64,000 bases of DNA from Salipaludibacillus agaradhaerens. GTDB lineage: Bacteria; Bacillota; Bacilli; Bacillales; Salisediminibacteriaceae. Positions 877 to 38,187 of the stretch are shown one piece after another (position 1 is the first letter of the stretch; every line of letters starts with the position of its first letter). The notes beneath the pieces are model-generated. The model ran no database searches and was not told the DNA's origin. It saw nothing but the letters and a program-made list of their open reading frames with translations. The stretch lies in assembly GCF_002019735.1 (NCBI RefSeq), contig NZ_KV917378.1, positions 1,235,869 through 1,299,868 of the forward strand. The letters are read 5' to 3'. Position numbers and translations under genes: made by a program.

Positions 877-939
877 CTCCTTTTTTAGTTAGAGTACGAT
901 CCCCCTTTTTCTCTCTGTGGGCATAAAAAATAACCCTAC

Positions 940-5129: not shown

Positions 5130-5149
5130 CGTCTCACTCCCTTATCCAA

Positions 5150-5174
5150 TAAAAAAAGCACCCACATGGGCGCT
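5150..5174 (-). terminator. Intrinsic terminator between distal tail protein and fibre genes
   Basis: On the minus strand AGCGCCC and GGGTGCT arms form a 7-bp stem (one G-U) followed by seven T residues. It lies between the stop of the distal tail gene and the start of the fibre gene, inside the late operon. Confidence 0.75.
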
Positions 5175-5193
5175 CTCATGGTTTATAATCTTT

Positions 5194-6051
5194 TTAAACT
5201 CCTAAATATCTGTTATGCCAAGCAATAGCAACAGCACCATCACGGCGCCCTCTATTAGCGCTATACTTAATCACGTTGTCGCCAGGGACTAAGCTCCATA
5301 AATCGGATGTTCTGTCCAAATAACCAAATGCATTGATGACACTGTTACCTCGATATATCTCCACACGTTTGTGGTTTTTATTGGTGTCAATGTGCAAAAT
5401 GTCGCCGCCGAGTAAATTAACATTAGCCCGTATATACTCTCCTGTTGTCTCGTTGATGACTTGCGGGACCTCTACAGGGCCTTGTATATTAATTTTTACT
5501 GGTGTAGTGACGTCTCCTGTATTTGTTAAGACCTCACTATCCCCACGGGTGCCAAAGCGCAACGGAAAACGTAACGGAAAAGAAAAAGTACCAGCAAACG
5601 CTACAAGCGTCCGTGATACTTCGAGTGGGTCACGCCAATATGGGTCAGGCGCCTGCAAATGAATCAGCGCCTTTTGAAATGTTCTTTGTCTGTTTGTCGA
5701 GCCATCGGGGAAAAAGGGGACTGCCTCGACAACAACATCTATTTCTTTTTCTCCCTCGTCATTAATAAATCTAAGCACTCCCATGCCTAGATTTGGACTA
5801 AATATAGATGATATCTTACGGCGATTAATAGTAAGGTCTGATTCATCGTTTCCTGTTATCTTTATCTGAATTTCAATTGATTTATTTTCTAAAACTGAGT
5901 CTACGTAGGTAGACCCGTCCTGATAAGGTGATTTTTGTGTTTGGACATCAACCTCTGTGCCACCTAACCCCTCTACGTTAATTAAACGATATGGAGCCTC
6001 GTAGAGCTCAATAGACTGATTAGCTGAATTAGTATAGATTAGTTTAAACAA
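5194..6051 (-). CDS. Distal tail protein (Dit, Sipho_tail family)
   Basis: A 285-residue protein of the Sipho_tail (pfam05709) family. The N-terminal part carries SPYQDGSTYVDS, RKISSIF and FINDEGEKEIDV, and the QAPDPYWRDP motif ends the first domain at about residue 140. A galectin-like C-terminal domain follows. Dit hexamers form the hub joining tail tube and baseplate. The start is a TTG directly after the tape-measure stop, with a GGGGG ribosome site 9 nt upstream. The order tape measure - Dit - fibre - Tal is standard for siphophages. Confidence 0.9.
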   Translation of the reverse strand: MFKLIYTNSANQSIELYEAPYRLINVEGLGGTEVDVQTQKSPYQDGSTYVDSVLENKSIEIQIKITGNDESDLTINRRKISSIFSPNLGMGVLRFINDEGEKEIDVVVEAVPFFPDGSTNRQRTFQKALIHLQAPDPYWRDPLEVSRTLVAFAGTFSFPLRFPLRFGTRGDSEVLTNTGDVTTPVKINIQGPVEVPQVINETTGEYIRANVNLLGGDILHIDTNKNHKRVEIYRGNSVINAFGYLDRTSDLWSLVPGDNVIKYSANRGRRDGAVAIAWHNRYLGV

Positions 6052-9000
6052 TCATCTAAACCCCCATTCCATTGCCAGACGTTGTTGCTGCTGTTTTTGT
6101 TTTTTAGCCGACTCACTAGGTGTCGATTCTGCCGGTGTAAAATAATTATTTATATTTGGCGAGTATGTGCGATTACTGCCGCCACTTGCAGGTGATTGAA
6201 AGTTTTTAAGGGCGTTAACAATTTGGTTACCACCGCTCGCATACCTCATCCTTGATGTACCCAAAGCCGCCTCGGGAGTCGATGTCATGATCATTCCGTT
6301 TGATAGGTTATCTAGCTCTTTATACACTGACTTGGCATTATCTCTAATCCCTACAGCAATCCCCTCGGGTATCCATTTACCAACGTCATCACGCATTAAT
6401 CGTGATGGTGAGTTTATTTTTAACGCCTTTTGCATGGTGTTAGCTACGCTGTTTGCGATATTACGAGCTGTAGACATCACTTGACCTCTACCAGCATTAA
6501 GACCAGCGTTTAAGCCAGACATAGCGTTGCGGCCAATGTTATTAAAATCGCTTGGCAATCTATTAAAAGGTCTAGTTAAATTGCGGGCAAATGACTGCAT
6601 TAGTTGTAATTGCATCCGTGTGCCAGTTGATAGCCTAGTCATCATATTACTCATAGCTTTGTGAGTGATAACCGGCAACTTGTTAAGAGAGTTTTCAATA
6701 TCTTTAACAGCTTTGTCATGATTTTTAGAGATCTTTTGAAAACTTTGATCCGAGCTTTTTAAAACAAAATCAAACATCTTTTGGACAGCTTGGATAACCT
6801 TTGATGTACCGTTGTTGATCCCAAGGACTAGACCTTCTGTGACGTTTGTTCCAATGTCCATAAATACTCTTGAGGGGCTGTTGACACCCAATGCTTTTTT
6901 AGCTGCATCTGTCGTATCGTCAGCCATCTGTTTAGATGAGTTCTCAGCATTTTTTGATCCTTGATCAATACCATCAGCCAAACCATCTGGGACGGCATTA
7001 CCGATAGATTTAAAATCGGCAGATTCTATTTGTTGGCTAAGTGTATCCTCTGTATCCGTCACTAAATGTCCTACAGCTTCCATCACGCCAGATTCTTCGA
7101 TTCCTAGCGATTTACTCAATGCATCTGTGGCCGTTTCCCCGCCTTTTGAAAAAGCTTCACTTAATCCCTCTAGTTCTTCGTCTGACGCATTGACTAACGC
7201 ATTGACATGCCCAGCTGATTCAGGTCCTGCATCTCTTAAAGTTTCTAATAACCCTTCATCAACACCACGTTCTGCAAGTGTTGCGATTCCTTCGGCCCAC
7301 TCACCGATAATACGTTGATTCTCTTCCAAGTTAGCTGTCATTTCTTCGACAGTGAGTTCTGCTTCGTCGCTGAGCGTATCAAACATATCTGTAGCAGCAT
7401 CTTTGTAATCTTCCCAGGTGGATTTCATGGATTCCACAGTTGCTTGTTGTGATTCCGACAAGTCCTCAAATGCGATTATCTGATTACTAACACCGTTTTC
7501 TGTGGCTTCTGTGATCGCTTCAATAGACGTTGTCATCTGTTCTTCAGTTTGTTCATATTGTAAGGCGAGTTCGGCATTCGTTTCTTTTAGTAACTCTTCC
7601 TGTTCGTCTAATTCCTCAATAGCTTTTTTATGTTCTCTACCTTTGACGCTTCCCTCTTCTAGTTTTTCGTTCCACTCCTCACGGAGAGCGTTCGTTTCAG
7701 CAAGTTTTTCCTCGACTTCCGCTTGCTCTTTTAAAATCTCTGTTAATCTACTTTGAGCTTCTTGTGCTGTCTCTTGCTCTTTCATTAAATCTATTCTTGC
7801 CTGCAATTCTTCGGAGGACATACTTAAAGCGTCCGCCTCTTCGCTGTATGCGAGATTTAGACCTTCTACGGATCCATTCAACTCTTCGATATATGAGTTA
7901 AGCATCGCTTTCTCAGATGCTGATTTATTTTCTTTATCAGCTAATTCTTCAATTTTTTTCGCTAATTCGTCATTTGCTTTAGCGCTCGCATTAATCTCTG
8001 TTTGATTAGCTTTATAAGCTTCGGATGAGCTATCAACACTATCATTTAAAGCTTGAGTTGATCCGCCCAATTCTTCAACTTCGTCATTTAATCTTTCTGC
8101 CTCTTTGCTTGTCCTATTAAACCATTTAACTACTCCAATTACTGCCGTAACAAGCAAGCCAATCCCAGCAGTCACCCAACCTATAGGACCTAGCATAAAT
8201 CTAATAGCAACACCAAATGCAGTAGCAGCCGCTGTGCCTATAACCTTAGCAGCTGTTAATAGACCAATCTGCCCTGTCATGACACCCATTGCTAACGTGC
8301 TTAATTTGATTGTCCCGGATTGTGCTGCCATTGCCACTGTTTGAGCCTTCGTTGCTGTTGTTGATGCAAACTGTGCTGTCATTTGAGCTTTTGTAGCTAA
8401 AGTTAAAGCTTGAGTTGATCCCATCGCCACCTTTAGAACCGCATTTGATGCTTGTATTGCAGCACTAGCTTTTGTTATCACTGTATAGGCTGCATAAGCA
8501 GTTACCAACCCTATAATAGCTGGCGATAGGGCTTGTACAACAGGTATAGCCGCACTAATGGCTGATGCAAAAAGCTTAACGACAGGAGTAGTCGCTTCAA
8601 TAGCAGAGGACATTAAATTAAACGATTCCATAACAATATCTTTCAAACTATCAATATTTTGAGCAATGTCCTTTCCCGTTACTGCTTCTGCAAGTTTATT
8701 TAACGAATCAATAATGTTTGCAATTCCCCTAGCCGCTGCATTTTGCAAGTTACCTAATGATGTTGCAATCCCTAAGCTGTTTTCTTTGGCCAACTCCGCC
8801 ATGATACCGGTTCCTGTACCAACCTCAATCAATTTATCGTTAAAGTCATCGAGCGTTACAGTTCCATCTTGTAGCGCTTTATATAAGTCGTCTTTGGCGC
8901 TTTTACCCGCATAACCAAAACCCTCGGCAATCTTAACAAGACCCACATCCATCGTCTCGGAGAGGGTATTCCACGTATTCATGTCAAACTGCCCTGTTTG

Positions 9001-9852
9001 TAGCGCCTTAATATATTGCTCTGTCCCTCGTTGAGCTTGAGCAGCACTAGCACCCGACCCAAGTAACGCATTATTTAGAGCTAATGCGGTGTCAGTAGCC
9101 TCATCCATGTTGCCAAATGAGGTATACATGCGCTGAGCGTTGGAAGCTATCTCGTCAAGTTTTGTAGGCAAGCCATCAATACCGTCTGATAGTTTACTCA
9201 TGGCCTGCTCGGATTCTTCTGCCGACACTCCTAAAGCCTGTAGCACTTTAGGGAACTGGTTAAGTGTATCAAAACGGCTAATAGCGTCATCCATGGAGGA
9301 TTTAAGCACACCAAACGCAGCAGCTGAAATGGCAACAAGACCAATAGCAGTTGCAAACTTTTTAATATCACCAGATGCTTGCTGAGAGTCATCGGATACG
9401 CCATCTAAACTATCTGATACCCCTTTGACGCTAGATGATGCATCAGCGCTACTATCAGCTAATCCATCAATAGACCCCTCGGCTCCCTTTAAACTTTTAC
9501 TAGCATCGGCGCCGCTGTCTCCTAAACCATCGATAGCATCACCAGCACCTTTGACACTCGACCCAGCTTTTGAGCTACTGTCTCCAAGTCCGTCGATAGC
9601 ACCCTCAGCACCTTTTAGGTCTCGACTGGTATTTGCTCCACTATCACCAAGAGCATCAATCGCCCCTTCTGCCCCTCTAACGCTAGACGCTGTTTTGGCG
9701 CTGCTATCACTGAGGCTGTCCATACTCCCCTCAGCTGCTTTAATCCCTTTTCCTGTTCTAAGGCCGGATTCTTCTAACCTCTCTAATTCTTTAGCCGCTA
9801 CGTTGACCTCTCTTCCATCCACTTCGATTTTTATCGAGATTTTTCCGTCCAA
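6052..9852 (-). CDS. Phage tail tape measure protein
   Basis: A 1266-residue protein, the longest in the window, as expected of the tape measure that sets tail length. In order it has six 21-residue N-terminal repeats (39-164), a TP901-type core (~170-400, with FDTLNQFPKVL and MDVGLVKIAEGFGYAGKSAKDDLY), hydrophobic segments at ~420-560, a long charged coiled coil (~590-760), and two 'MGVNSPSRVF / KINSPSRLM' type repeats near the C-terminus. The TTG start at 9852 is backed by AGGAGGG 8 nt upstream; no better ATG is available. The downstream dit gene starts right at its stop. Confidence 0.95.
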   Translation of the reverse strand: MDGKISIKIEVDGREVNVAAKELERLEESGLRTGKGIKAAEGSMDSLSDSSAKTASSVRGAEGAIDALGDSGANTSRDLKGAEGAIDGLGDSSSKAGSSVKGAGDAIDGLGDSGADASKSLKGAEGSIDGLADSSADASSSVKGVSDSLDGVSDDSQQASGDIKKFATAIGLVAISAAAFGVLKSSMDDAISRFDTLNQFPKVLQALGVSAEESEQAMSKLSDGIDGLPTKLDEIASNAQRMYTSFGNMDEATDTALALNNALLGSGASAAQAQRGTEQYIKALQTGQFDMNTWNTLSETMDVGLVKIAEGFGYAGKSAKDDLYKALQDGTVTLDDFNDKLIEVGTGTGIMAELAKENSLGIATSLGNLQNAAARGIANIIDSLNKLAEAVTGKDIAQNIDSLKDIVMESFNLMSSAIEATTPVVKLFASAISAAIPVVQALSPAIIGLVTAYAAYTVITKASAAIQASNAVLKVAMGSTQALTLATKAQMTAQFASTTATKAQTVAMAAQSGTIKLSTLAMGVMTGQIGLLTAAKVIGTAAATAFGVAIRFMLGPIGWVTAGIGLLVTAVIGVVKWFNRTSKEAERLNDEVEELGGSTQALNDSVDSSSEAYKANQTEINASAKANDELAKKIEELADKENKSASEKAMLNSYIEELNGSVEGLNLAYSEEADALSMSSEELQARIDLMKEQETAQEAQSRLTEILKEQAEVEEKLAETNALREEWNEKLEEGSVKGREHKKAIEELDEQEELLKETNAELALQYEQTEEQMTTSIEAITEATENGVSNQIIAFEDLSESQQATVESMKSTWEDYKDAATDMFDTLSDEAELTVEEMTANLEENQRIIGEWAEGIATLAERGVDEGLLETLRDAGPESAGHVNALVNASDEELEGLSEAFSKGGETATDALSKSLGIEESGVMEAVGHLVTDTEDTLSQQIESADFKSIGNAVPDGLADGIDQGSKNAENSSKQMADDTTDAAKKALGVNSPSRVFMDIGTNVTEGLVLGINNGTSKVIQAVQKMFDFVLKSSDQSFQKISKNHDKAVKDIENSLNKLPVITHKAMSNMMTRLSTGTRMQLQLMQSFARNLTRPFNRLPSDFNNIGRNAMSGLNAGLNAGRGQVMSTARNIANSVANTMQKALKINSPSRLMRDDVGKWIPEGIAVGIRDNAKSVYKELDNLSNGMIMTSTPEAALGTSRMRYASGGNQIVNALKNFQSPASGGSNRTYSPNINNYFTPAESTPSESAKKQKQQQQRLAMEWGFR
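9361..9738 (-). repeat. Six tandem 21-residue (63-bp) repeats in the tape measure gene
   Basis: Residues 39-164 of the tape measure protein consist of six consecutive 21-residue units with the pattern GAEGAIDGLGDSSAKASSSVK, here shown as a consensus only. Units are diverged at DNA level but in perfect register. Changes in copy number of such a segment would be expected to alter tail length or the N-terminal packing. Confidence 0.85.
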
Positions 9853-13956: not shown

Positions 13957-14112
13957 GTTATCTACGCGCTCTAAAAACTCACCATCCCACTTTTTGAGGT
14001 TTTTCATGGCTTCCTCTGCGCGCTTTACTGTCATGTCGATTTCTTGGTTTTCCGCGTATGCCTCACCTGTCTTTTTATCTCTAAACGGTTGCAACACTTT
14101 GAACTTGGCCAT
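13939..14112 (-). CDS. Small phage structural-region protein (57 aa)
   Basis: A 57-residue frame, MAKFKVLQPFRDKKTGEAYA at the start, with a basic N-terminus, an ENQEIDMTVKRAEEAMKNL segment and an acidic end. The ATG overlaps the capsid stop as TAATG. Small proteins with a 'kFKVLkPFrDKeTge' start are common after phage capsid genes; the function is not known. They may be capsid decoration or head-completion proteins, but that is inference. Confidence 0.72.
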   Translation of the reverse strand: MAKFKVLQPFRDKKTGEAYAENQEIDMTVKRAEEAMKNLKKWDGEFLERVDNKEEGE

Positions 14113-15110
14113 TAACCTTCAGCTCCTGCAGTTTGCGGAACCGTGTTAAAACGGAATTTAACAATCCTAACAGCTTTCGGCTCATATACACGAGTCCAAC
14201 GAGTGCCAGTGTTAATCTCCGCATTAGTAGGAAACACTTCTGCTACGCCACCTTCATTCCACTTAACTCCGCGTGGATGGAGAATGAAAATTTTACGGTT
14301 GATCAGGGCTTCTTCCCCTGAGTAAGAGCGTGCATTCCGGTCTACTTCTGTTTGGATAATTCTTGGATGAGACCCATTTCCAAGAGCAATAGCACTTTGA
14401 CCGAAAATATACATTTCAGCCTGTCCTGTTGCTGTATCGTAGTACATAGAATCGTCAACAGTGACACGTTTCCCATTGAAGTAAGGGATTGGTTTACCTT
14501 GCTCGGATTGTGGTACATCTTCAATTAAGTCTTGCTTCCGTAACTTCGTTTCAACGGCTGAGTGCATCATAACTCCTGTAAGAGCCTCTTTTGCATCACC
14601 CATTAATTGAGTCGCATCTAGGAACGTTTCCATATTGATGGTTCCAGCTGTTCCGTCACGGCCTGTGATGTCATAAACCTTTTGAGACATGCTGTTGCTT
14701 TTAAACACCCCAGATAGGGTTGCTAAAAGAGTTCGCTGCAAGTCACGTGCCCAATAAGCAGCAACTAATTGAGCAATCGCATCCAATGGGTCATCACCAG
14801 ATAGCAATGCAGAAAGCCCGTTAGCGCCCCACGCATTTACTCGTCCATGCTTTCGTGCAACGTCATCGCTTGAAGTGATTTTGTTAACGTCCATGTCCCC
14901 AGAATCCTTCATGATTTGAGACTCTTCATTACCCAAATCATTCCAGAAAGGCATGTCAATTAATGTGTTTGCTCCACCAGCTAAGTTATCAAATTCAGAG
15001 TCATTTGCAATAACCCCACTTTGTACTAATGCCGACAGTTCCATTGTTTTTTGAATCGTATATGGAGTAAAAATCTCCGGTTGAATAACATCTTGTAAAC
15101 GTGTAGTCAT
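14112..15110 (-). CDS. Major capsid protein
   Basis: A 332-residue protein of the Gp13-like / A118-type major capsid family. It starts TTRLQDVIQPEIFTPYTIQ and has the typical ANTLIDMPFWNDLG, DDVARKHGRVNAWGAN and LMGDAKEALTGVMMHS stretches. It builds the HK97-fold icosahedral shell. It follows the scaffold gene and has a good ribosome site (AAAGGAG). Confidence 0.92.
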   Translation of the reverse strand: MTTRLQDVIQPEIFTPYTIQKTMELSALVQSGVIANDSEFDNLAGGANTLIDMPFWNDLGNEESQIMKDSGDMDVNKITSSDDVARKHGRVNAWGANGLSALLSGDDPLDAIAQLVAAYWARDLQRTLLATLSGVFKSNSMSQKVYDITGRDGTAGTINMETFLDATQLMGDAKEALTGVMMHSAVETKLRKQDLIEDVPQSEQGKPIPYFNGKRVTVDDSMYYDTATGQAEMYIFGQSAIALGNGSHPRIIQTEVDRNARSYSGEEALINRKIFILHPRGVKWNEGGVAEVFPTNAEINTGTRWTRVYEPKAVRIVKFRFNTVPQTAGAEG

Positions 15111-15130
15111 TTTAGTATCTCTCCTTTAGA

Positions 15131-15847
15131 TTATTTTCCAGCTTGCGCTTTTAAATTGTTATAAAGCTCCGGATTTTCTTTGTACAATTTCCCTTGCTCT
15201 GTTAAATTCCAATTTTCTTTACTAAAAGGATTTGGCCTTCCTGTTCCTCCGTTCGGATTGCCGGGTGTGACAATCTGCGGTGACTGCTGGCTTTCTTCCT
15301 TTTTTTCTCCTGCAAAATGAGGATAATCTTCAACTACTTGTTTGATAGCCTCTTTAATATCCACCTCTTCATTAACTTTTGTCTTAGCAAGAGTGATAAC
15401 GGCTTCTAAATTCTTCTCGTCTGTAATTCCTACTTTTATCGCTTCATTTTCCGCTTGCAAATCAGCAATAGCAGTATCTTTTTTACTTATTTCCTTCTCA
15501 AACGATGATAGTTTTCCATCTAACTTTTCTCGTTCTGTTTTTTGACTTTCCTGCCACTCTTTGAACTTCTCCATGCCATCTTTGGCGTTCTCAAAGTCCT
15601 CAATACCTAACTCTTTCAAGATCGCTTCTCTAGCTGATCTCTTTTCTTTAGCTGCTATTTTGTTCACGTCATCTTGAGTAAAAGTTTTATCCTCTGCTTT
15701 TTCGGTAGCAGTATCCGTTTGTTGCGTTTGGTCTTGTTGTTGGTCATTTCCTCCAGCTTGGTTGTCGGCTTGCTGGTCGCCCTGATCTCCGCCATTGGCA
15801 AAGTGTTGAATACTTAACGGCAAAAATGGACTGAATAGTTTTTTCAT
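15131..15847 (-). CDS. Capsid scaffold protein (DUF4355 / GP20-like)
   Basis: A 238-residue protein. After a short hydrophobic start comes a Q/D/N-rich linker (20-50), then a long charged coiled coil (~60-130) and a G/P-rich tail ending in TEQGKLYKENPELYNNLKAQ. This layout is that of the DUF4355/GP20 scaffolds, which guide capsid assembly and then leave. It lies directly before the major capsid gene and has the ribosome site GGGAGG. Confidence 0.88.
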   Translation of the reverse strand: MKKLFSPFLPLSIQHFANGGDQGDQQADNQAGGNDQQQDQTQQTDTATEKAEDKTFTQDDVNKIAAKEKRSAREAILKELGIEDFENAKDGMEKFKEWQESQKTEREKLDGKLSSFEKEISKKDTAIADLQAENEAIKVGITDEKNLEAVITLAKTKVNEEVDIKEAIKQVVEDYPHFAGEKKEESQQSPQIVTPGNPNGGTGRPNPFSKENWNLTEQGKLYKENPELYNNLKAQAGK

Positions 15848-15924
15848 TTTAATTTCCTCCCAATTTGGGTAATTTTCCTTCCGTTTCTTTTCCGCCTAAC
15901 GAATAAAAGGCCGTCAAAAATAGA

Positions 15925-15958
15925 TAAGAAAGCACCTACCGAGTCTCACGATAGGTGC
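15925..15958 (-). terminator. Terminator upstream of the scaffold gene
   Basis: On the minus strand GCACCTA and TAGGTGC form a 7-bp stem around a 13-nt partly paired loop, followed by TTTCTTATCTATTTTT. It separates the portal/minor capsid segment from the scaffold-capsid segment. Confidence 0.75.
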
Positions 15959-15960
15959 GG

Positions 15961-16179
15961 TTATTTAATATATTTTTCTATATCTAGTGTAGGTGTTTCT
16001 CCTGCTTCGCCATCAAAAGTGATGTGCTTTACTCTTTCGTGTTCCTTACCATCCTCATAAATTTTTACAGTACGTCCATCACACACGATAACTACTTTGT
16101 GTTCAGAAGGATTTATAAGATCACATCTTTTGTGAACGAAAGTTTCACCGCCAATTTCTAAATTCGGAATATTTCCCAT
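15961..16179 (-). CDS. Small phage protein of unknown function (72 aa)
   Basis: A 72-residue protein starting MGNIPNLEIGGETFVHKRCD. It is beta-rich with IVCDGRTVKIYEDG. The ATG at 16179 has GAGAGGGGTG upstream; a longer frame from 16233 lacks a ribosome site. No family recognised. It lies between the minor capsid and scaffold genes. Confidence 0.65.
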   Translation of the reverse strand: MGNIPNLEIGGETFVHKRCDLINPSEHKVVIVCDGRTVKIYEDGKEHERVKHITFDGEAGETPTLDIEKYIK

Positions 16180-16236
16180 GATTTCACCCCTCTCAGTCGC
16201 TACATTGCCCGTAGCTTGGCAGATATGGATCACCTC

Positions 16237-17397
16237 CTAATTGTCATAAGAAAAGCCCTCCAACAAAGTTGATAAGGGCGTGTAGACTTTTTCTCTTTTG
16301 TAATTCCTACTTAGATACTTTTCATTATTACTTAAATGCTCTCTCATTGCAGCCTGCCTACGCCTTACCATCGACCGCCAATGACCAACATTGTCACTAC
16401 CCAATTCCTCGGCTACCATAAGATTCTTTTTATATTTAACAATCTCCCTCTCAATTCGCCGTTGCGTATCTCTTGCCTTTGCCACTCTCTCGTTTAGCTC
16501 AGCGTCATATTTAGGTTGATTGTTGGTGCTTACCCCAGGGATATAAATAATATGAAGATGGGCACAATTTGCACCTCGATGGCCTCCAGCTGATCCATAC
16601 TCTGCCTGCCAGTATGGATCATAAATAGATCGATATTCACTATCTGCAGGTAATTGCTCCATAGGTCTTAAATCAACCACATTTCCCTGTATAATCGAGC
16701 AAGCGTCCCTAGCCCCTACATGACTTGTGACAAGCACCGTATATACGCCATATTCGCTCATACGCTCTGTTCTCAGCTGGTTGTATGTGTTTCCTAGTGT
16801 TGACTTTAAAACGGTGCGAGTGTATCCCTCTAGGCTCCATGTGTTGCCTCCTCGGTCCGTCAGTCTAGTACGTATACCCTTTTGAGCAAGCTCTGTGATA
16901 GATCGCTCCAATGATTGCTCAAACGTATAGAGGCCGGTGTTAAACATGGCCGCTGTTTTATTTAAAGTATTTTGATAGGCCAGTTGCGCCGATCCTCTAC
17001 CATAACTCGTTGTAATAAGTGATTGATTAACATAATTATCAATGTCACCCCAAACTTGACTATGATAGGCCCTCATAGTGTTATCTAAGTTTGTCGGCAT
17101 CGGCTTAGTCGCATAAGGCATAGCGTTATCTACATTTTGCACAATTTGTTTCCCAACCTCTTCAAACATCCTTTTAATTTCAGGCTCAGCGACATTGGTC
17201 ACTTTTGATAGCAGCTTTGTCACGTCATTGTTAAACAGACGTAACTCTGCTAGTTTTTGAGCTTGCCACTCTGTTATATCACCGGACCCTCTATTTAAAC
17301 GTTTGATAAGGATGCGTATAATCTCCCCCTCAAGGCTTTGATAAAGATCTGACATATTAGATGACCAAAGGTCCAGTTGGTGAGGCGAGACAGTCAT
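16237..17397 (-). CDS. Phage minor capsid / head morphogenesis protein (Phage_min_cap2)
   Basis: A 386-residue protein of the minor capsid 2 family that sits next to the portal. It has a helical first half, the TRTVLKSTLGNTYNQLRTERM segment (in part), then GARDACSIIQG and HRGANCAHLHIIYIPG, which hold conserved cysteines and histidines of the head morphogenesis fold, and a basic helical C-terminus. It is thought to be packaged inside the head in small numbers. It follows the portal gene with a 5-nt gap. Confidence 0.88.
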   Translation of the reverse strand: MTVSPHQLDLWSSNMSDLYQSLEGEIIRILIKRLNRGSGDITEWQAQKLAELRLFNNDVTKLLSKVTNVAEPEIKRMFEEVGKQIVQNVDNAMPYATKPMPTNLDNTMRAYHSQVWGDIDNYVNQSLITTSYGRGSAQLAYQNTLNKTAAMFNTGLYTFEQSLERSITELAQKGIRTRLTDRGGNTWSLEGYTRTVLKSTLGNTYNQLRTERMSEYGVYTVLVTSHVGARDACSIIQGNVVDLRPMEQLPADSEYRSIYDPYWQAEYGSAGGHRGANCAHLHIIYIPGVSTNNQPKYDAELNERVAKARDTQRRIEREIVKYKKNLMVAEELGSDNVGHWRSMVRRRQAAMREHLSNNEKYLSRNYKREKVYTPLSTLLEGFSYDN

Positions 17398-17402
17398 TTA
17401 GA

Positions 17403-18950
17403 TCACTCCTCATTACCAAATAGATGTTTAGCAGCCCTATCACCGATGTTTGTCGGGTCCGTGTCTGTCTGTTCTTTTTGTACCTCTCTAACCCATTGAT
17501 CTGCGGTCTTTTTAGGTACTTTAAATACCCGTTGGATAGCTTCAGCAGAGGGAATAAAGCCAAATGTCTTGGCCTGCCCATAGAAGCGCAACAGCGCCGA
17601 TCTATCTTGAAACACGCCATCATCAAAGTCTACGCCTATGTGTTCAAAAGTTGGTATATCGCCATTAAATAGCTTATATGCTTTGGCTAGCTCAAGCACC
17701 GACACTACCAATCCCTTGATAAACTTTTCAATCTCATTAACGTGGTTATTCCTTGTTCTATAAGTTAGACTGTTCTCGCTGACAATTTCAGTTGCTGTCT
17801 TAACAGATTTGCCATCAAAACTAAAGGTACCAACCGACAATTGCAATTGCATCTCTAATGTTTTTAATGACTGATTGATTGCCGAGGTATATTGTTCTGT
17901 TCTAATGTCGTTTGTTACATCTTTGACAAACTCTTGATCAAACTCCATTCTCGCTAACTTATACACGTTTGTATCTGGGTCAAACACTTGTCTAGGGGGA
18001 TTACCATTTTCATCGACGCGTGTTTTCAGCATTTGATCGCTTAAAAATACTGTACGTTGCCCCATCTTCACTTCCCAATTAAACTGATCAAACGTATCGT
18101 TGATTTGTTTTAGAGTTGGCTTACTATTGTCGGTGATACCCAACCCTAATGGGCTATGTGGATTTATATTATTAAAGCCAGCAGGCTTTAAATAGTTGAA
18201 ATTCGTGCGAGTTAGATGGCTTATTTTTGTTCTTTCATTTAAACCTTCAAACAATTCATCTAAGAGAACCCTTTTCCCAATCTCATTTTTATTGTCTGAC
18301 TTATATAATTCGTTGGATATGACATATAAATCATTTTCCCACTCATGAAATTCGAGTAATGTATAATGAATCTCTTTACCCCGTTCAATTTTCGTTGTTA
18401 CAGACTTAATAACACCTTCTGCAATGGCATTGCTATTAGATTTCAACGGGTAAAAAGCATTTGATAAAGCCCACGCAAATTCTATTTTTCCTGTTGATTG
18501 ATCAACGTATGGCCTTACCGCCAATCCCCCAGTAGCAAACATAGGTTCTAAATATCGCATTAAATTTTTTTTGAAGTCATTATGTTCAAATACACGTTGG
18601 ATAAAATCGTTAGCTGATTTATATGAGTTTCTTGTCTCGTCTTCTTTTTTATCATCCGAGACAACAATTTCACACTGTTCATTAAACACGAGGCCAGACA
18701 GCAGTTCTGAGCTTAATTTCAACATATTCAAATGCATATAATTTCTTTTCTTCAACTCTCCCATGCTGTTAAAGTATTCAACTTGTGGATAGTGACCCTT
18801 GTATTCATTAAAGTTACGTTCAATTCTAGCTAATTCTTCTGGATCAATGTTGATTTTTGGGTGATCATTGATAGATTTTAGTGTGTTATCCCCGGCCAAT
18901 GCATACCCTCCTCTCTTAAAAAAGTTTCTAATGCGGTTGATAATGTTCAA
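17403..18950 (-). CDS. Phage portal protein
   Basis: A 515-residue portal of the A118/SPP1 type. The start region carries IRNFFKRGGYAL, then VEYFNSMGELKKRNYMHLN (part), and the later QTDTDPTNIGD tail. Twelve copies make the ring through which DNA is packed. The start is a TTG preceded by GGAGGTGATACA. The gene follows the large terminase gene with 11 nt between, the standard order. Confidence 0.9.
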   Translation of the reverse strand: MNIINRIRNFFKRGGYALAGDNTLKSINDHPKINIDPEELARIERNFNEYKGHYPQVEYFNSMGELKKRNYMHLNMLKLSSELLSGLVFNEQCEIVVSDDKKEDETRNSYKSANDFIQRVFEHNDFKKNLMRYLEPMFATGGLAVRPYVDQSTGKIEFAWALSNAFYPLKSNSNAIAEGVIKSVTTKIERGKEIHYTLLEFHEWENDLYVISNELYKSDNKNEIGKRVLLDELFEGLNERTKISHLTRTNFNYLKPAGFNNINPHSPLGLGITDNSKPTLKQINDTFDQFNWEVKMGQRTVFLSDQMLKTRVDENGNPPRQVFDPDTNVYKLARMEFDQEFVKDVTNDIRTEQYTSAINQSLKTLEMQLQLSVGTFSFDGKSVKTATEIVSENSLTYRTRNNHVNEIEKFIKGLVVSVLELAKAYKLFNGDIPTFEHIGVDFDDGVFQDRSALLRFYGQAKTFGFIPSAEAIQRVFKVPKKTADQWVREVQKEQTDTDPTNIGDRAAKHLFGNEE

Positions 18951-18961
18951 TGTATCACCTC

Positions 18962-20236
18962 CTACAGTACGTATTGCCTATAAAAGTGGTTGTTTGCATA
19001 TCTGGCTTCATCCATAGCGTGATTCCAATCGTCAATTGGGTTTCCGTCATCATCACGTACATACATACCGATTTCTTTTATAAAGTTGTAATGATCATAT
19101 TTGTTTGTATCCACTAAAAAGAAACGTTCTTCTGTAATAGAGTTTTGGAACCTTTCAATCCCGACTTCTATTCCACCACCTTGATTTTTCGCATCTTGAG
19201 CATTATTGTCTGCTCTTCTAGTAGAAACGTTTATTTTATGAAGCTCTTCTCGGAGAGATTTACAAGCCGGATCTACAAAGACATCAGAATAACCTGTTTC
19301 ATACTTTTCTAAGCACCATTTTATAAATGCTTTTATTTCAAGGGCATAAGTGCTCATTGCCTTTACTTGTCCTGTATCCCTGCCAGAATGATAATAGTTT
19401 GCTACTCGATTTAATCTAAATTTGCCTTTATAACGAGTAACGATATTGCAGCTGCAGGAAGTGGCGTCCGACTGACCGCCGTCTGCGACAAAATAAACCT
19501 CGTGAATTTCTCCTAATAATTTTGGAATAGTGTTTTTATCAGGATCAAACATGGAATATATAACGCCCTCTGGCATAACACGCTTGCCAAACCAGTCACG
19601 ATCCAGCAAATAAGGGTTCTTTTTAAGAATCTCGTATATTTCCTTCTTACGCTCATCACTAATGATCGGGTTGTCTTGAATTGTCCAATGGGTCCACCTA
19701 GTGTTTTGTACGTCAAATACCTCACTTATAACCGGATGGTGCGGCGCTGGTGGGTTTAAATCAGCTAAAAAATACCGGTCCCTTGCAGCAAAGGTCCGGC
19801 GAAACGCTTCTTGTATAAATTTCATATTCAATAAATTGATCTCACAAAACATTACAGAGCCAAGTGACATACCTGTTATAGCACCTACACTATTAACCTT
19901 TGCGCCCCCTTTATAATAAACCCGCTTAATACCTTTAGGCGTGTGTATTTCTAAATGGTCGCCGTGTTCATCATGTTTAATATCAGAGTGGCCATTAAAT
20001 ATATGCATCAACCCAGTACCATCACCGTCTATAAACAGACGGAAAGCTTGTTCTTGGTTATAAGCACCCACTAGATGGTTTGTATCCTCGCAGTTAATTA
20101 AGTAATCAGAGTACCTAAAATGAGCCGCTGTGGTCTTGCCTGATCTAGGTGTACCTTCAAACACATCAAATGTGTAGTCGTAGGGACGATAAATACACTC
20201 AAGCTGTTTATCGCTAAATTCAATCTTTGTTTTCAT
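18962..20236 (-). CDS. Phage terminase large subunit
   Basis: A 424-residue packaging motor of the PBSX/Terminase_3 family. Walker A is GTPRSGKT at residues 28-35. The Walker B position reads SVMFCEIN, with cysteine where most family members have aspartate. The RNase H-like nuclease has acidic residues in FVADGGQSDA, VFVDPACKSL and NHAMDEARYAN. It cuts the concatemer and drives DNA into the head with ATP. The start overlaps the small terminase gene by 17 nt. Confidence 0.92.
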   Translation of the reverse strand: MKTKIEFSDKQLECIYRPYDYTFDVFEGTPRSGKTTAAHFRYSDYLINCEDTNHLVGAYNQEQAFRLFIDGDGTGLMHIFNGHSDIKHDEHGDHLEIHTPKGIKRVYYKGGAKVNSVGAITGMSLGSVMFCEINLLNMKFIQEAFRRTFAARDRYFLADLNPPAPHHPVISEVFDVQNTRWTHWTIQDNPIISDERKKEIYEILKKNPYLLDRDWFGKRVMPEGVIYSMFDPDKNTIPKLLGEIHEVYFVADGGQSDATSCSCNIVTRYKGKFRLNRVANYYHSGRDTGQVKAMSTYALEIKAFIKWCLEKYETGYSDVFVDPACKSLREELHKINVSTRRADNNAQDAKNQGGGIEVGIERFQNSITEERFFLVDTNKYDHYNFIKEIGMYVRDDDGNPIDDWNHAMDEARYANNHFYRQYVL

Positions 20237-32867: not shown

Positions 32868-33026
32868 TTACTGAGCTACCTTTCCTTTCTTTTGTTGTTC
32901 CTGCTGTTCTTTCTGTTCTTGCTCTGCTTTAGCTTTCCTGATTAGCGCTTTCGCTACAATCTTGTAGACTATTTCCTGCGCTTCTTTGGAAAACTGGTTA
33001 ATGTGTGGTGATCTTGGTTGTGTCAT
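32868..33026 (-). CDS. Small Q/K/E-rich phage protein (52 aa)
   Basis: A 52-residue frame starting MTQPRSPHINQFSKEAQEIV after GGGAGGGAG. It has a helix, then a run of Q, K and E residues. Function unknown. It fills the gap between the antirepressor and XRE genes. Confidence 0.65.
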   Translation of the reverse strand: MTQPRSPHINQFSKEAQEIVYKIVAKALIRKAKAEQEQKEQQEQQKKGKVAQ

Positions 33027-33101
33027 AAAACTCCCTCCCTTAGTTGATGCTATGCTTGCTCTTGAGTGGGACTACCCTTGTTTTTTTAAAAGAAATTGCG
33101 G

Positions 33102-33863
33102 TTATACAACCTGATAAACGTCATGCTTTTCGATCTCCGGTAAAATATCGTTATCTTTAAGTAAGCTGTAGATAAATAACCGTCCTTTTTGTGTCCACTT
33201 TGTTGTGGGATTAACATCACGTGTGCCATCTCTATGTTTGTATTCAAAAGTGTGTGAGTGGACATACCCTTTACCGTCGTGTTTACGATATAGGAACCAT
33301 TGCTCACCGCGTTTGTATTGAACGCCTAACTCATGAAGTTTTTTATTCAATTGTTGCGCTGTCATGCCGTAATCTTTTGCAATAGATGAAACAGAGACTA
33401 AGCCTGGATTAGATAGGATTTTCTTTGCGTATTCCGCATAAGGTTTCATCTTTTGATTTTCAATTGAGAGCTTTTCATTTTCTTCTTCTTTCTCAACTAA
33501 TTGAAGCAGTGCTTCTTTGTAGTTTTTAGGCAGTTTATAAGGTTGATTGATTTCTCGTTCCATTTCTTCAAATTTGGTAACGTAAGCAGCTGTGAACAAG
33601 ACCCCCTTTTGCCCTGTCATCTTGTTAGCTACCATGTCACATCCTTTTTTTGTTAAAAGGTAATGTTTATAGTTTCGAGTTCCAGAACTGTAATAACTCT
33701 CAATGAAAAAATCAGATAATCCAAAATTGGATTTTCCTAATATTTGGTTGTAATTGTTAATATCTCTTAATAAATGTGAATGCTCTTTGCCTGTCATTTC
33801 TGCCACGTCTCGACTATCAGCAACTAACTTTCCGTTATGCTCAAAAACTTGTAATTGATTCAT
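33102..33863 (-). CDS. Phage antirepressor (Rha N-terminus, KilAC C-terminus)
   Basis: A 253-residue regulator. Residues ~1-100 are a Rha domain (VADSRDVAEMTGKEHSHLLRDI, in part; YLLTKKGCDMVANKMTG). A short coiled coil follows (~115-140). Residues ~145-240 are an ANT/KilAC DNA-binding domain (VSSIAKDYGMTAQQLNKKL, in part). Such proteins counter the repressor or control early genes. It is the third lytic gene after the Cro-like one, the usual position. Confidence 0.9.
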   Translation of the reverse strand: MNQLQVFEHNGKLVADSRDVAEMTGKEHSHLLRDINNYNQILGKSNFGLSDFFIESYYSSGTRNYKHYLLTKKGCDMVANKMTGQKGVLFTAAYVTKFEEMEREINQPYKLPKNYKEALLQLVEKEEENEKLSIENQKMKPYAEYAKKILSNPGLVSVSSIAKDYGMTAQQLNKKLHELGVQYKRGEQWFLYRKHDGKGYVHSHTFEYKHRDGTRDVNPTTKWTQKGRLFIYSLLKDNDILPEIEKHDVYQVV

Positions 33864-34099
33864 GTCAATTCTCCTTTCAGCTTGTCTGTTTCGTTATTTA
33901 TTTCATGTAGCCACTCATAGTCTTCTGTTGAGTAGGCCATGTAGAAAAATGTTTCTAGCAGACCGAGTTTCCTGTTGTAGATCTTCAAGAATTGTTCGCA
34001 TTCTTTCAGATCCCGTCTCTCATCTCTCGTGAGAGTGAAATTCTTTTTCTTTTGCTTGAGCCAGTGGTATCGTTCAAAAACTGGTTGAGGATTCGGCAT
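33860..34099 (-). CDS. Small phage protein (79 aa)
   Basis: A 79-residue basic helical protein starting MPNPQPVFERYHWLKQKKKN. It overlaps the antirepressor by 4 nt and the Cro-like gene by 1 nt. No family known. Confidence 0.6.
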   Translation of the reverse strand: MPNPQPVFERYHWLKQKKKNFTLTRDERRDLKECEQFLKIYNRKLGLLETFFYMAYSTEDYEWLHEINNETDKLKGELT

Positions 34100-34332
34100 T
34101 AGATCACCTCCTGTCTTTTTTGTTCACTTGTAGTTAACTTACTATCCAAAAAAATATAATCAGGGCTTGCTTTAAATACATTGGCAATCTTTACAGCTAG
34201 ATCGTAACTTAGTCTACGTTTTCCGTTCTCGATCATCCAATAATGTTCTTTCGAGACTCCAATACGGTCAGCGACTTGTTGGCAAGTAAGCCGTTCTTGC
34301 ACTCTTATTTGTTTCAACTTATCTAAAGCCAT
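34099..34332 (-). CDS. Cro-like XRE repressor
   Basis: A 77-residue protein, almost wholly an XRE helix-turn-helix (LTCQQVADRIGVSKEHYWMI, then NGKRRLSYDLAVKIANVF). It is the first gene of the leftward lytic operon, divergent from the CI-like repressor, so it is the Cro counterpart. Its promoter carries GTTAAC sites. Confidence 0.88.
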   Translation of the reverse strand: MALDKLKQIRVQERLTCQQVADRIGVSKEHYWMIENGKRRLSYDLAVKIANVFKASPDYIFLDSKLTTSEQKRQEVI

Positions 34333-34350
34333 TGTTTCACATCCTTTCGT

Positions 34351-34459
34351 GTTAACTTGATGTTAACTACAGTTTAGTTCACCATAAGTTAACTGTCAAT
34401 AGGTTTTTATAAAAAAGTTTCTTTTTAGTTAACTTTGTTTAAATTAACATATTGTTAAC
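34351..34459. promoter_or_regulatory. Immunity operator region with GTTAAC sites
   Basis: The hexameric palindrome GTTAAC occurs at 34351, 34362, 34388, 34428 and 34454 between the divergent regulators. Spacings are 11, 26, 40 and 26 bp. Flanks favour AAGTTAACTT-like sites. They overlap both promoters and are the likely binding sites of the repressor and Cro-like protein. Another copy lies inside the cro-like gene (34133). Confidence 0.75.
34371..34399 (-). promoter_or_regulatory. Lytic (cro) promoter
   Basis: On the minus strand TTGACA and TAAACT are separated by 17 nt. A GTTAAC operator lies directly after the -35 and two more lie just downstream of the -10. Confidence 0.85.
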
Positions 34460-34466
34460 TTATAAT
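34438..34466 (+). promoter_or_regulatory. Lysogenic (repressor) promoter
   Basis: TTTAAA, 17 nt, TATAAT on the plus strand, with a GTTAAC operator (34454) directly before the -10. The -35 is weak, as often for a self-regulated repressor promoter. Confidence 0.65.
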
Positions 34467-34501
34467 GGAGATATTATGCAATTTCTAAAGGAGAATTTGA
34501 A

Positions 34502-34876
34502 ATGGATGGTAAGAGATTAAAGATACTCAGACAAAATAAAAAACTAACTCAAGAAGAGCTAGGTAAAATTATAAATGTTTCCAAAGTGTCCATTTCTGGT
34601 TACGAAAGTGGTGACAGAAGTCCAGACACCGATAATTTAAGGCGTTTAGCTGACTACTTTGATGTCACGACTGATTATTTATTAGGTCGTAGCGATCACC
34701 CAGAGTTAACAGCTGAGGATGATGAGAAAAGTTTTGATTACTATAAAAGCAAAATCGCTAAAGAATTTCCTGACATAGACTTGATGTTTAAAGATATGGA
34801 GTCGTTAAGCGCTGAGGATATGAAGGAAGTTTATGAATATATAAAATTTAAAATGAGTCAAAAAAAGGACGATTAA
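34502..34876 (+). CDS. CI-like phage repressor (XRE family)
   Basis: A 124-residue repressor. Residues 5-60 are an XRE helix-turn-helix (LKILRQNKKLTQEELGKI, SKVSISGYESGDRSP); the rest is a helical dimerisation tail (DIDLMFKDMESLSAEDMKEV, in part) with no peptidase domain. It lacks a LexA-like self-cleavage module, so induction probably depends on the ImmA-type peptidase encoded two genes downstream. AAAGGAG precedes the ATG. Confidence 0.88.
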   Translation: MDGKRLKILRQNKKLTQEELGKIINVSKVSISGYESGDRSPDTDNLRRLADYFDVTTDYLLGRSDHPELTAEDDEKSFDYYKSKIAKEFPDIDLMFKDMESLSAEDMKEVYEYIKFKMSQKKDD

Positions 34877-34894
34877 AAGGAGGCGAGATTAACA

Positions 34895-35764
34895 ATGGAG
34901 GAAAAAGAAAACGTTAAGCAAGAGAAGAAGTCGATTAACAAAAGAATTACGATAATAAGTTTGATTCCTGTGCTCATAGTTAATCTGATTTTTACTGATC
35001 TTTTCATGTTTATGTATTACGAATTTATAAGATATTTTCAAGACGGTTTTCAATCTCAAGTACTGCTATTCTTTTTAGAAGAATTCGCATGGTGGTTTGG
35101 GATTTCTGGAGCAGTTTTCTTAGCGACATTTGGCATCTTAAAAGGCATTGATCTACAAATAGATCAAAATGAGAAAGAGTTAAAAGAAAAGAAAAAAGAA
35201 TCAGAGAAACTTTCAGAAAATTTCTCACCAACTAAAAAAATATATAATCAATTAGCTATCGACGAAGAACGTAATAAATGGGCGATTTATGACAAACACG
35301 GATTGATTGAACAGGTGTATGATTATAACGATATAGCAGACTTCGAATTATTGGAAGATGGCAATTCTGTTGCAAGTGGCGGACTCGGAAGAGCTTTCGT
35401 GGGCGGCGCTTTATTCGGTGGTGCAGGAGCCATTGTAGGTGCAGTAACTAGAAAAAATAAAGAATTTTGCAATAGCTTGAAAGCTAAAATCACAATTAAT
35501 AACATGGAAGCCCCTATTGTTTATATCACTTTTATCGAACATAAAACTAAAACCAAAAGCGACGCATATAAATCTGCATATGACCAGGCACAAGAATGTA
35601 TGTCTATATTACAATTAATCTGCAATCAAACAAAAGATTTAGCCAAACCAAAATCAGATAATAATGCTGCTGATGATATAATGAAATACAAGAATTTATT
35701 AGATGCAGGAGCAATTACAGAGGAAGAATACAACCACAAAAAGAAACAGTTGTTAGAATCATAA
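34895..35764 (+). CDS. SHOCT-domain membrane protein in the lysogeny module
   Basis: A 289-residue protein with two membrane segments (~20-44 and ~57-84), a coiled coil (~88-110), a beta-rich middle with a glycine-rich stretch (GGLGRAFVGGALFGGAGAIV), and a C-terminal SHOCT motif (MKYKNLLDAGAITEEEYNHK, in part). It is expressed with the repressor, so it probably acts in the lysogen, for example in superinfection exclusion; this is inference. GGAGG precedes the ATG. Confidence 0.7.
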   Translation: MEEKENVKQEKKSINKRITIISLIPVLIVNLIFTDLFMFMYYEFIRYFQDGFQSQVLLFFLEEFAWWFGISGAVFLATFGILKGIDLQIDQNEKELKEKKKESEKLSENFSPTKKIYNQLAIDEERNKWAIYDKHGLIEQVYDYNDIADFELLEDGNSVASGGLGRAFVGGALFGGAGAIVGAVTRKNKEFCNSLKAKITINNMEAPIVYITFIEHKTKTKSDAYKSAYDQAQECMSILQLICNQTKDLAKPKSDNNAADDIMKYKNLLDAGAITEEEYNHKKKQLLES

Positions 35765-35839
35765 AGGTGTACACCAGTGCACCAAATTTTTCAAACAAAA
35801 AACCGAACATACATTCTACTAACAAGAGGGGGTTATAGT

Positions 35840-36298
35840 TTGTATACACATGTAGAAGATTATATAAATAAACTATTTAAATCTATTGGAGTTAAAAATC
35901 CTACTGACTTAGATATGCATACTATAGCAAACAAAATAGGTGTCAAAATTCAATATAAAGAACACCCATTTAGATTTAATAACGAAGTTTTGTTATCTAA
36001 AGGATCTCAAAAACAGCAATGGATGGATTTTGGCCATGAAGTTGGTCATTATCTAAGGCACTGTGGGTCTCAAGCGATTTTAAATCCTCTATTTATCGAG
36101 TTACAAGAGTGGCAGGCTAATAACTTTGCTTATCATTTTTGTGTACCTACTTTTATGTTGGACAAGCTTACTATTCATAATGCATATGATATTGTAAATA
36201 TGTTTAATGTTGATCATCCTTTTGCATCTAAAAGGCTAGACATGTATTTAAGTAACCACTTTTATAAGGATAAGGAGAGATACTATGTATATAGCTAA
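35840..36298 (+). CDS. ImmA/IrrE-type metallopeptidase
   Basis: A 152-residue zinc peptidase. HEVGH at residues 66-70 is the active site and Glu90 in LQEWQANNFA the third ligand. In ICEBs1 and related phages ImmA cleaves the repressor on induction. The TTG at 35840 has GAGGGGG upstream and gives the typical YTHVEDYI start; the GTG at 35777 is less likely. It belongs with the repressor at 34502. Confidence 0.88.
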   Translation: MYTHVEDYINKLFKSIGVKNPTDLDMHTIANKIGVKIQYKEHPFRFNNEVLLSKGSQKQQWMDFGHEVGHYLRHCGSQAILNPLFIELQEWQANNFAYHFCVPTFMLDKLTIHNAYDIVNMFNVDHPFASKRLDMYLSNHFYKDKERYYVYS

Positions 36299-36461
36299 AA
36301 TGGAGGTGTGGGTAAAATTAAGCGACGCATGCCCCAAAAGACTTGCCAACGGCACATACAGGATACCGACCTTTGACAAAGTAAAGTTGATTAACGGTAA
36401 AGAGTATGGCCGCTTTGATAGTTTTGTAGATTTGGCAAAAGAACATCTGGAGGAAGACTAA
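36285..36461 (+). CDS. Small protein coupled to the integrase (58 aa)
   Basis: A 58-residue frame beginning MYIAKMEVWVKLSDACPKRL, preceded by AAGGAG. It overlaps the ImmA gene by 14 nt and its stop overlaps the integrase start as TAATG. I know no family for it. Translation coupled to the integrase suggests an accessory role in recombination, possibly directionality, but nothing in the sequence proves this. Confidence 0.65.
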   Translation: MYIAKMEVWVKLSDACPKRLANGTYRIPTFDKVKLINGKEYGRFDSFVDLAKEHLEED

Positions 36462-37885
36462 TGAAAATAGCTATTTATGTACGTGTATCGACCGATGAAC
36501 AAGTTAAGTCTGGACACTCAATCGACAACCAAAAAGAACGCCTTATTGCTTTTTGTACGTCTCAAGGTTGGGATGATTATAGTCTTTATATTGACGATGG
36601 CTACACCGGGACAAATTTAAACAGGCCCGCATTAAAAAGAATGGTTAGTCATGTAGAAGAAAAACGGGTTGATGCTGTGATTGTTTACAAGCTAGATCGA
36701 CTTAGCAGACGACAACAAGACGTGTTATATCTATTAGAAGATGTCTTTGAGAAAAACGATTGCGTTTTTAAAAGTGCTACGGAGCCATTTGACACGTCTA
36801 CCCCACTTGGCAAAGCCATGATCGGGATACTGGCCGTATTTGCTCAGTTAGAAAGAGATATGATCATTGAGCGCATGACAGCAGGTAGACGGGCAAGGAC
36901 ATCAAAAGGTATGTGGTATGGAGGTCGAATACCATACGGTTATAATTGGGATAAGGAAAAGCAAGAATTAACCGTAAACCACGAACAAGCTCGCATTGTA
37001 AAGCATATGTACGCCATGTATTTAAAAGGCGCCTCCCGTTTAGAGATCGCTGAATGGGCTGAGAGTAGAACAAATGAACGAGTTTTAAATCACTCTACTG
37101 TACGTGATATCCTTACTCGTGTTTTGTACACAGGTAAGCTGCAAAACAAAGAACAACTAGTGGACGGAAATCACGAGGCGATCATTGACACTGCCACTTT
37201 TGAGGCCGTACAACGTGAATATGAAAAAAGGCGTACCACTAGATTTCAAAAAGGAAAGTTTTTGCTGACAGGATTAATGAAATGTGGCATTTGTGGTGGT
37301 AACGTGGTTAATGTTAAACGTAAAAGTAAATATGCTGAAGGTGGCTACTATCATTTTTATACGTGCAAAGATCAACATGTAAGAGCCAAAGATACAACTA
37401 ATGATAAATGTTGGGTTGGCTATCACCGCCGCCAAATGATAGAAGATAAAGTTATTAAGAGGATCAAGGACTTAGCATTAGATGATGAGTTAGTTAAAAA
37501 AGAGATAGAAAAGTCATCTACTCCCCATGAAGATCAATCCGGTTTGATAAATGAATTAAATGAAAAGTTAAAAGAAACTGTCGTGGGATTAGAAAACTTG
37601 TATGAAGCTATTCAAATTGGCGAAATCAAGGCATCGTTTGTTAGTGGACGAATTACGAAACTTGAAGAGGAACGAGAACGTATACAAACACAGATAGATG
37701 ATTTATCGCTCGACTCCCCTGCCCCAGTGTCTAACGAGTCTGTTATTAGGATGATCAAAAAAATACATGAGTCATGGGATTATATAGAGGAAGAGGAAAA
37801 GAGTTTGTTACTCCGAACCGTCATTGATAAGGTGGTTTTAAAGAAGCATGGAGAAATTGATATTAAGTGGAACTTCGTGAATTGA
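36461..37885 (+). CDS. Large serine recombinase (phage integrase)
   Basis: A 474-residue serine integrase. The catalytic domain (~1-140) has YVRVSTDEQ with nucleophile Ser10, the DRLSRR motif at 79-84 and the [11 protein letters not shown] helix. The recombinase domain (~150-260) and a zinc ribbon (C275, C278, C302, C317) follow, then a long coiled coil (~365-420). It joins attP and attB without host factors, and excision needs a directionality factor. It ends within 30 bp of the junction with spoVR. Confidence 0.95.
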
Positions 37886-37910
37886 CTTCATATTCATGAA
37901 GTTTTGTTTT
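37885..37910 (+). terminator. Integrase terminator
   Basis: ACTTCAT and ATGAAGT pair around ATTC and are followed by TTTGTTTT. It starts at the last base of the integrase stop codon and runs up to the prophage-host junction. Confidence 0.75.
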
Positions 37911-37920
37911 CCCAAAACTC
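37900..37920. other. Prophage-host junction (attachment site region)
   Basis: Similarity to SpoVR ends at codon 57 (Lys, 37908-37910); the following codons differ from the known SpoVR continuation. The crossover core is therefore at or close to the TTTTGGGAAAAC sequence here (minus strand). The other attachment site is outside the window, so the exact core cannot be set. Confidence 0.7.
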
Positions 37921-38111
37921 CAGTGGTTAAATCGTGTAGGCATACCATAGGCCCCAAACGTATATATAATTTCCGCTGGACACACTTCATAGCGCATTGG
38001 ATAAAAATCAAGTCCGAATCCTTTTGCAATATCTGTAATTTCATTAATGGCATTTGTCAACGCCTCATTGTCCGTCATATATGTCTACCTCCTTCTACGG
38101 TCAATTAATAC

Positions 38112-38140
38112 AACTTATGTAAAAACTTCTAAAATGATGA
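38112..38140 (-). promoter_or_regulatory. Candidate sigma-E promoter of spoVR
   Basis: On the minus strand TCATCAT, 14 nt, CATAAGTT resembles sigma-E elements (-35 ATA-rich, -10 CATACAnT), placed about 30 nt before the spoVR ribosome site. spoVR is sigma-E dependent in Bacillus subtilis. The match is partial. Confidence 0.4.
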
Positions 38141-38187
38141 GAAAACTTCAGACAAGGCTAGAAAATCAGCGCGATACACGCCTTAAA

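Follow-up and report, generated by a model that had tools for sequence, protein, structure and literature searches.

The window, i.e., the whole stretch of 64,000 nt of Salipaludibacillus agaradhaerens that was analyzed, comprises most of a prophage and, next to its right end, the beginning of the sporulation gene spoVR. The frame 37863-38078 (minus strand, 71 aa) matches the Pfam SpoVR profile (PF04293) with its residues 4-59 (profile positions 4-60, E 6e-19), departs from SpoVR past codon 57 (..HWSFGK) and ends within the 3' end of an integrase gene (36461-37885, plus strand). From the Pfam match and the reading of the junction, the 5' piece of spoVR occupies 37908-38078 (minus; 57 codons ending ..SFGK), followed by a tail that reads as phage-derived and overlaps the integrase 3' end (37863-37907, minus). 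An earlier, sequence-only reading had recognized this N-terminus of 57 residues and its break at the integrase gene, and had expected the remaining codons past the left prophage end in the same orientation. They were found there, to the left of the window at G000:C1:1231284-1232324 (minus strand; G000 denotes the source genome), as a frame without internal stops that covers profile positions 56-405 (E 2e-126). Both pieces are separated by 41.46 kb. A full-length spoVR elsewhere had been named as counterevidence; a search of the entire source genome (one contig, 4,319,439 bp) returned two SpoVR matches, both partial, and no third one at E ≤ 0.001.

The matching att core that had been looked for at the far end is the trinucleotide AAA, which is common to both junctions (attR at 37908-37910, minus; attL outside the window at G000:C1:1232316-1232318). 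If the pieces are joined in silico at this AAA, the frame continues (GGG-AAA-CAA-TTC) and yields a SpoVR protein of 476 aa with 95.8% identity to the intact SpoVR of another genus member (G007). In G007, where spoVR is uninterrupted, both flanks of the element abut with a 4-bp overlap, and thus the empty site is exact. Judged from these sequences, a chance match is excluded as the explanation of the interruption.

According to the literature, spoVR is a mother-cell gene. Its ribosome site is intact, as described before, and the possible sigma-E promoter corresponds to a sigE-like site, CTCATCAT-14-CATAAGTT (38112-38141, minus); a similar site is found in 7/7 genus relatives. The source genome further contains intact sigK and spoVFB genes and a sigE-like gene. 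Both spoVR halves are under purifying selection (omega 0.03-0.05); the own branch shows 37 synonymous and 10 nonsynonymous changes, the sister branch 39 and 11. This undecayed state fits either a recent insertion or regulated rejoining. Since only one of the eight genus genomes carries the insertion, while each of the seven others has one intact spoVR, the insertion may be recent and the clean halves may be uninformative in this genome.

The inserted prophage

The whole element measures 41.46 kb (G000:C1:1232316 to 1273775), of which positions 1-37910 lie inside the window and the left 3.55 kb outside. That it is a serine-integrase prophage was borne out by its gene content: the integrase (474 aa) shows the Pfam domains of large serine recombinases, namely Resolvase, Recombinase and Zn ribbon, and a scan of 20 called genes against PHROGs recognized phage structural and lysogeny genes. 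The latter form a module at 34099-36298 with two HTH regulators (34099-34332, minus; 34502-34876, plus) and a metalloprotease which we read as ImmA-like (35840-36298, plus), next to an antirepressor (33102-33863, minus; PHROG 63, E 3e-68). Terminase large subunit, portal and major head protein are encoded at 14112-20236 (minus), while the region 409-9852 (minus) comprises the tail tape measure protein (6052-9852) and a holin (409-849). Further recognitions were a RecT-like protein, a DnaD-like loader, repressor-type regulators, an excisionase-like protein and an HNH endonuclease. Consequently, the insert looks like a complete temperate siphophage, completeness being read from its genes and activity being a separate matter. 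Among 1383 phage records, all integrase matches stayed below 60% identity, and a search of viral contigs for integrase relatives gave one partial relative only.

To the left of the window, between attL and a 68-aa ORF, a GAAC-N4-GTTC motif was observed (G000:C1:1232358-1232369), a LexA-like box. SOS control of the left-end prophage genes via this box is possible.

Relatives of the integrase and their targets

Two samples were compared, 397 genomes of the order (integrase threshold E 1e-90) and 398 genomes of the class (E ≤ 1e-75). In the order sample, the sole other integrase reaching the threshold was that of G215 (59% identical), whose prophage of about 46 kb lies within spoVFB, with the first codons after spoVFA and the remainder at the far end. 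In the class sample, 21 genomes were positive, our own included. Twelve of these, from seven families, have spoVR split at codon 57 without an intact copy: the source genome, G421, G449, G470, G475, G484, G560, G628, G640, G682, G734 and G766, the spoVR pieces being on separate contigs in G628, G484 and G421. In G774 and G562 the 5' end of spoVFB adjoins the integrase, an assignment made from this end alone. Other related integrases neighbor a glycerate kinase-like frame (G616, G687) or an MFS-like frame (G608, G695), both named by eye, or a frame without identification (G679), while G623 stops at a contig edge; G572 was left out of the target reading. Among the SpoVR matches listed for 299 order genomes, 42 genomes were re-read (all with at least two listed matches except our own, plus a few), and no further codon-57 split was seen in these.

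For genomes with both ends on one contig, approximate element sizes range from 3.1 kb (G470), 5.9 kb (G682), 7 kb (G640) and 9.4 kb (G734) to 36 kb (G560), 41 kb (own), 54 kb (G766), 57 kb (G449) and 135 kb (G475). The last corresponds to the largest distance between spoVR halves that was seen (G475 C1:533325-668437). By eye, the four smallest elements lack phage structural genes, and their spoVR pieces are still open. As judged by eye from the translations, those of G470 and G682 have a few small genes besides the integrase, whereas those of G640 and G734 carry metabolic cargo, namely genes of pseudouridine and terpenoid type and pyruvate dehydrogenase and transporter genes (again named by eye). 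In the integrase tree, nine spoVR and three spoVFB elements fall into one group, though with support that is not strong (82/85), and our element and that of G215 form a sister pair (100/99). Outside this main group, the pair of G421 and G475 as well as G734 have no resolved position. As the main group contains spoVR and spoVFB elements only, target changes inside it would have taken place between two mother-cell genes.

Apart from G421, where the contig ends at the junction, all spoVR elements were included in the att reading. At the 11 junctions read, GGN-AAR closes the 5' piece, and Y-AAR closes the phage arm that precedes the 3' piece. The attP assembled from both arms reads TTCAT-N16-YAAR-N16-ATGAA in these 11 of the 12 elements, with two exceptions, one T-to-C and one A-to-G, both in G734. 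In the source element the right arm, ATGAA, is located at 37887-37891, 16 nt away from the core; the core is short (AAA) and attP roughly palindromic, with symmetrical TTCAT/ATGAA arms. The attP of G215 is a near-perfect palindrome with the core GT and arms that are 3 bp shorter. Joined spoVR frames are open in 11/11 cases, in nine of them for 398-423 codons beyond the junction (419 in our own). The two others, G640 (L182, L183) and G734 (L184, L185), have a doubly interrupted spoVR: besides the insertion at codon ~57, a second one with a different serine recombinase lies near codon 270, within the NEGWATYW stretch. Here the joined frames are open to or beyond the second insertion, and the last third of the gene after it is open as well.

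A candidate directionality factor

A small gene of the source element (32868-33026, minus) encodes a 52-aa protein, for which we predict the role of recombination directionality factor. It belongs to a family of ~50-aa proteins common to the codon-57 elements, and in Pfam and PHROGs neither it nor any other of the 10 members tested had a match with E below 0.03. The family was built from five small ORFs chosen by eye as seeds (own, G215, G470, G682, G734). The seed HMM, run on 3550 ORFs, matched G560, G484, G640, G449 and G475 (E 1e-11 to 2e-5), and G421 was matched later; the rebuilt HMM added G774 and G562 (E 1e-7), G679 (0.0019) and G766 (0.0075) from 1603 ORFs, whereas the match in G628 was weak (E 0.047). 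Thus, the partner accompanies the integrase in 12/12 spoVR elements, a count that includes four hand-picked seeds and two weak matches. In G687 and G695 the matches were not significant (E 2.4 and 3.6); nonetheless, both share the upstream pattern described below. We take this family as the candidate excision or directionality factor. No such candidate family was found in the literature searched.

A different factor is conceivable. An excisionase-like protein of 72 aa is encoded near attL (G000:C1:1233625-1233843) and matches PHROG 4691, excisionase (E 2e-5); its position resembles that of sprB, which likewise lies near an end of SPbeta. However, a relative of this protein is absent from the sister element in G215 at E 1e-3, whereas the ~50-aa partner is present in G215 and, within the limits given above, in every spoVR element. 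That the 72-aa protein instead of the 52-aa protein serves as directionality factor is therefore doubtful, while it deserves to be kept in mind. The 68-aa ORF adjoining attL was considered as well and rejected; it matches PHROGs of unknown function only and lacks a relative in G215.

Upstream of the 52-aa gene, sequence reading revealed a sigE/sigK-like -10 box, CATAGCATC (33046-33054, minus). A CATA motif at -19 to -31 of the partner start occurs in 17/17 upstream regions compared to 35/419 control genes, and a T at position 8 of the box in 12/17 compared to 12/419, where the 17 rows are homologous and hence not independent, the control set comprises called genes of the same loci, candidates included, and the partner starts of G470, G475 and G679 were shifted by eye (the default start of G475 has no CATA). 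In several regions, GCAAGTGACCAAGC or a sequence close to it was noted by eye 22 nt ahead of CATA. SpoIIID-like sites upstream of the partner gene were not enriched (6/17 compared to 11/35 control CATA genes), scanning the complete prophage with the sigE/sigK consensus yielded no site above the level of shuffled sequence, and the scan per gene upstream of the partner in 11 elements fell below a shuffle p of 0.05 for G449 only. Moreover, G687, G695 and G679 have the CATA box in front of the partner gene as well, and the genes next to their elements have no known role in sporulation; the box is thus not confined to elements in spore genes. Given this and the homology of the rows, mother-cell control of the partner gene is suggested only.

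Discussion

Intervening elements in sporulation genes are a general principle (PMC4191935, PMC6957869, PMC5025042). The source element resembles them: a mother-cell gene lies in two pieces on the same strand, an intact copy is absent, and excision in silico rejoins the gene in frame. According to PMC4191935, the interruption of spoVR itself is already known from vrin, a phage-related intervening element of Geobacillus thermoglucosidasius C56-YS93 (Abe 2013, as cited there). However, vrin is described there as defective, whereas our element looks like a complete phage. SPbeta in spsM of Bacillus subtilis is a complete prophage with a large serine integrase as well (PMC4191935). The excision of SPbeta depends on SprB, a small directionality factor whose mother-cell promoter has a CATA-type -10, and rejoins spsM in the mother cell; our candidate factor would be of this kind, and the same rejoining is proposed for spoVR. 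Differences are the target gene, the position of the CATA boxes of sprB (-38 and -34, beyond the range of -31 to -19 counted for the partner family) and the proteins themselves, as neither HMM nor hhalign detected a relation between SprB (58 aa) and the partner family. The same paper names vfbin in spoVFB of B. weihenstephanensis, and spoVFB is also the target of the relatives in G215, G774 and G562. The skin element in sigK of B. subtilis likewise combines a recombinase with a small directionality factor, Skr (64 aa), under control of sigE and SpoIIID (PMC6957869). In contrast, skin is defective and occupies another gene, sigK being intact in the source genome. Finally, gin in gerE of B. cereus is a non-phage intervening element (PMC5595907), and the codon-57 lineage comprises cargo forms as well (G640, G734). 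While gin has three serine recombinases, as does the codon ~270 site of spoVR, the codon-57 elements read (own, G470, G682, G640, G734) have one. In the literature searched, as far as its text was available, only vrin and spoVR interruption in general are cited; the codon-57 element family is absent from it, and neither this integrase lineage nor a doubly interrupted spoVR has a precedent there.

We consider it probable that the source element is a temperate prophage which intervenes in spoVR and is excised in a regulated manner, thereby rejoining the gene in the mother cell. This is the best explanation because of the lineage rather than because of this one genome: the integrase lineage keeps the same codon across several orders, the spoVR halves are still open around small non-phage elements, and a ~50-aa protein preceded by a CATA box is conserved alongside. 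As the sequence shows, the integrase uses the AA of the conserved lysine codon (SFGK), so that integration splits spoVR in frame with nothing lost. During sporulation, the directionality factor would be supplied by sigE-type transcription in the mother cell, the 52-aa protein being the likeliest candidate. Together with the integrase, this factor would then excise the phage, whereby spoVR would be rejoined under the control of its own sigE-like promoter and SpoVR could act in the cortex. The forespore would retain the prophage and the germ line would thus lose nothing. Upon DNA damage, the same pair would serve ordinary phage excision.

An alternative is plain lysogeny: the conserved codon would serve as attB, spoVR would be inactivated, and lysogens would sporulate poorly or without SpoVR. 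The single occurrence within the genus and the packaging, tail, holin and lysogeny genes agree with an ordinary temperate phage. In addition, 11 of 35 family genomes (two of these 80% complete) gave no SpoVR match, so that some lineages evidently do without the gene. However, the pieces are open in 12 genomes from seven families, in some of them around small elements without recognizable phage structural genes, and the only other target within the main integrase group, spoVFB, is a mother-cell gene too. Thus we regard plain lysogeny as unlikely. It is highly improbable that excision is unneeded because the 3' piece, open for 415 codons from an ATG (M62) 12 nt past the junction AAA, yields a sufficient N-truncated SpoVR, since the first 57 residues belong to the conserved Pfam domain and are conserved in the split gene as well, and the spoVR promoter is on the other piece.

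Beyond regulated excision in the source genome, we favor, with somewhat less confidence, a wider reading. In several orders of Bacilli, one lineage of large serine integrases would have specialized on a single lysine codon within spoVR and would at times have switched to spoVFB, its elements being full phages, metabolic cargo islands or minimal elements of 3-6 kb. These would share a new ~50-aa directionality factor made from a mother-cell promoter, so that spoVR would be a safe gene to attach to, being repaired in the doomed mother cell alone; in some genomes, spoVR would hold two such elements. If so, spoVR is an attachment gene that is both recurrent and phylogenetically deep, and its interruption does no harm solely because the insert can be excised in the mother cell. 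The series from phage to cargo island to minimal element may then represent a possible route from phage to developmental switch, and the ~50-aa partner offers a concrete, short candidate protein for the control of excision.

A second insertion site in spoVR

A second recurrent site at codon 262-275 of spoVR was observed at six loci (L094, L136, L137, L139, L146 and L148, from G016, G183, G188, G207, G103 and G260). It has its own serine recombinase family with 50-56% identity to that of G640, and 5/6 loci showed two further recombinase matches. Besides, orphan 3' ends of spoVR, from codon ~262 to the stop, occur downstream of an intact spoVR at L133, L134, L140, L142 and others. The four that were compared lie ~1-3 kb from the intact copy and are 82-97% identical to it, as if elements at this site brought along a replacement 3' end. 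In G016 (L094/L095, C1:172189-202283), a spoVR 5' piece, recombinases, an intact spoVR and then the 3' piece follow each other within 30 kb, and the island between the pieces seems to carry a whole copy of spoVR.
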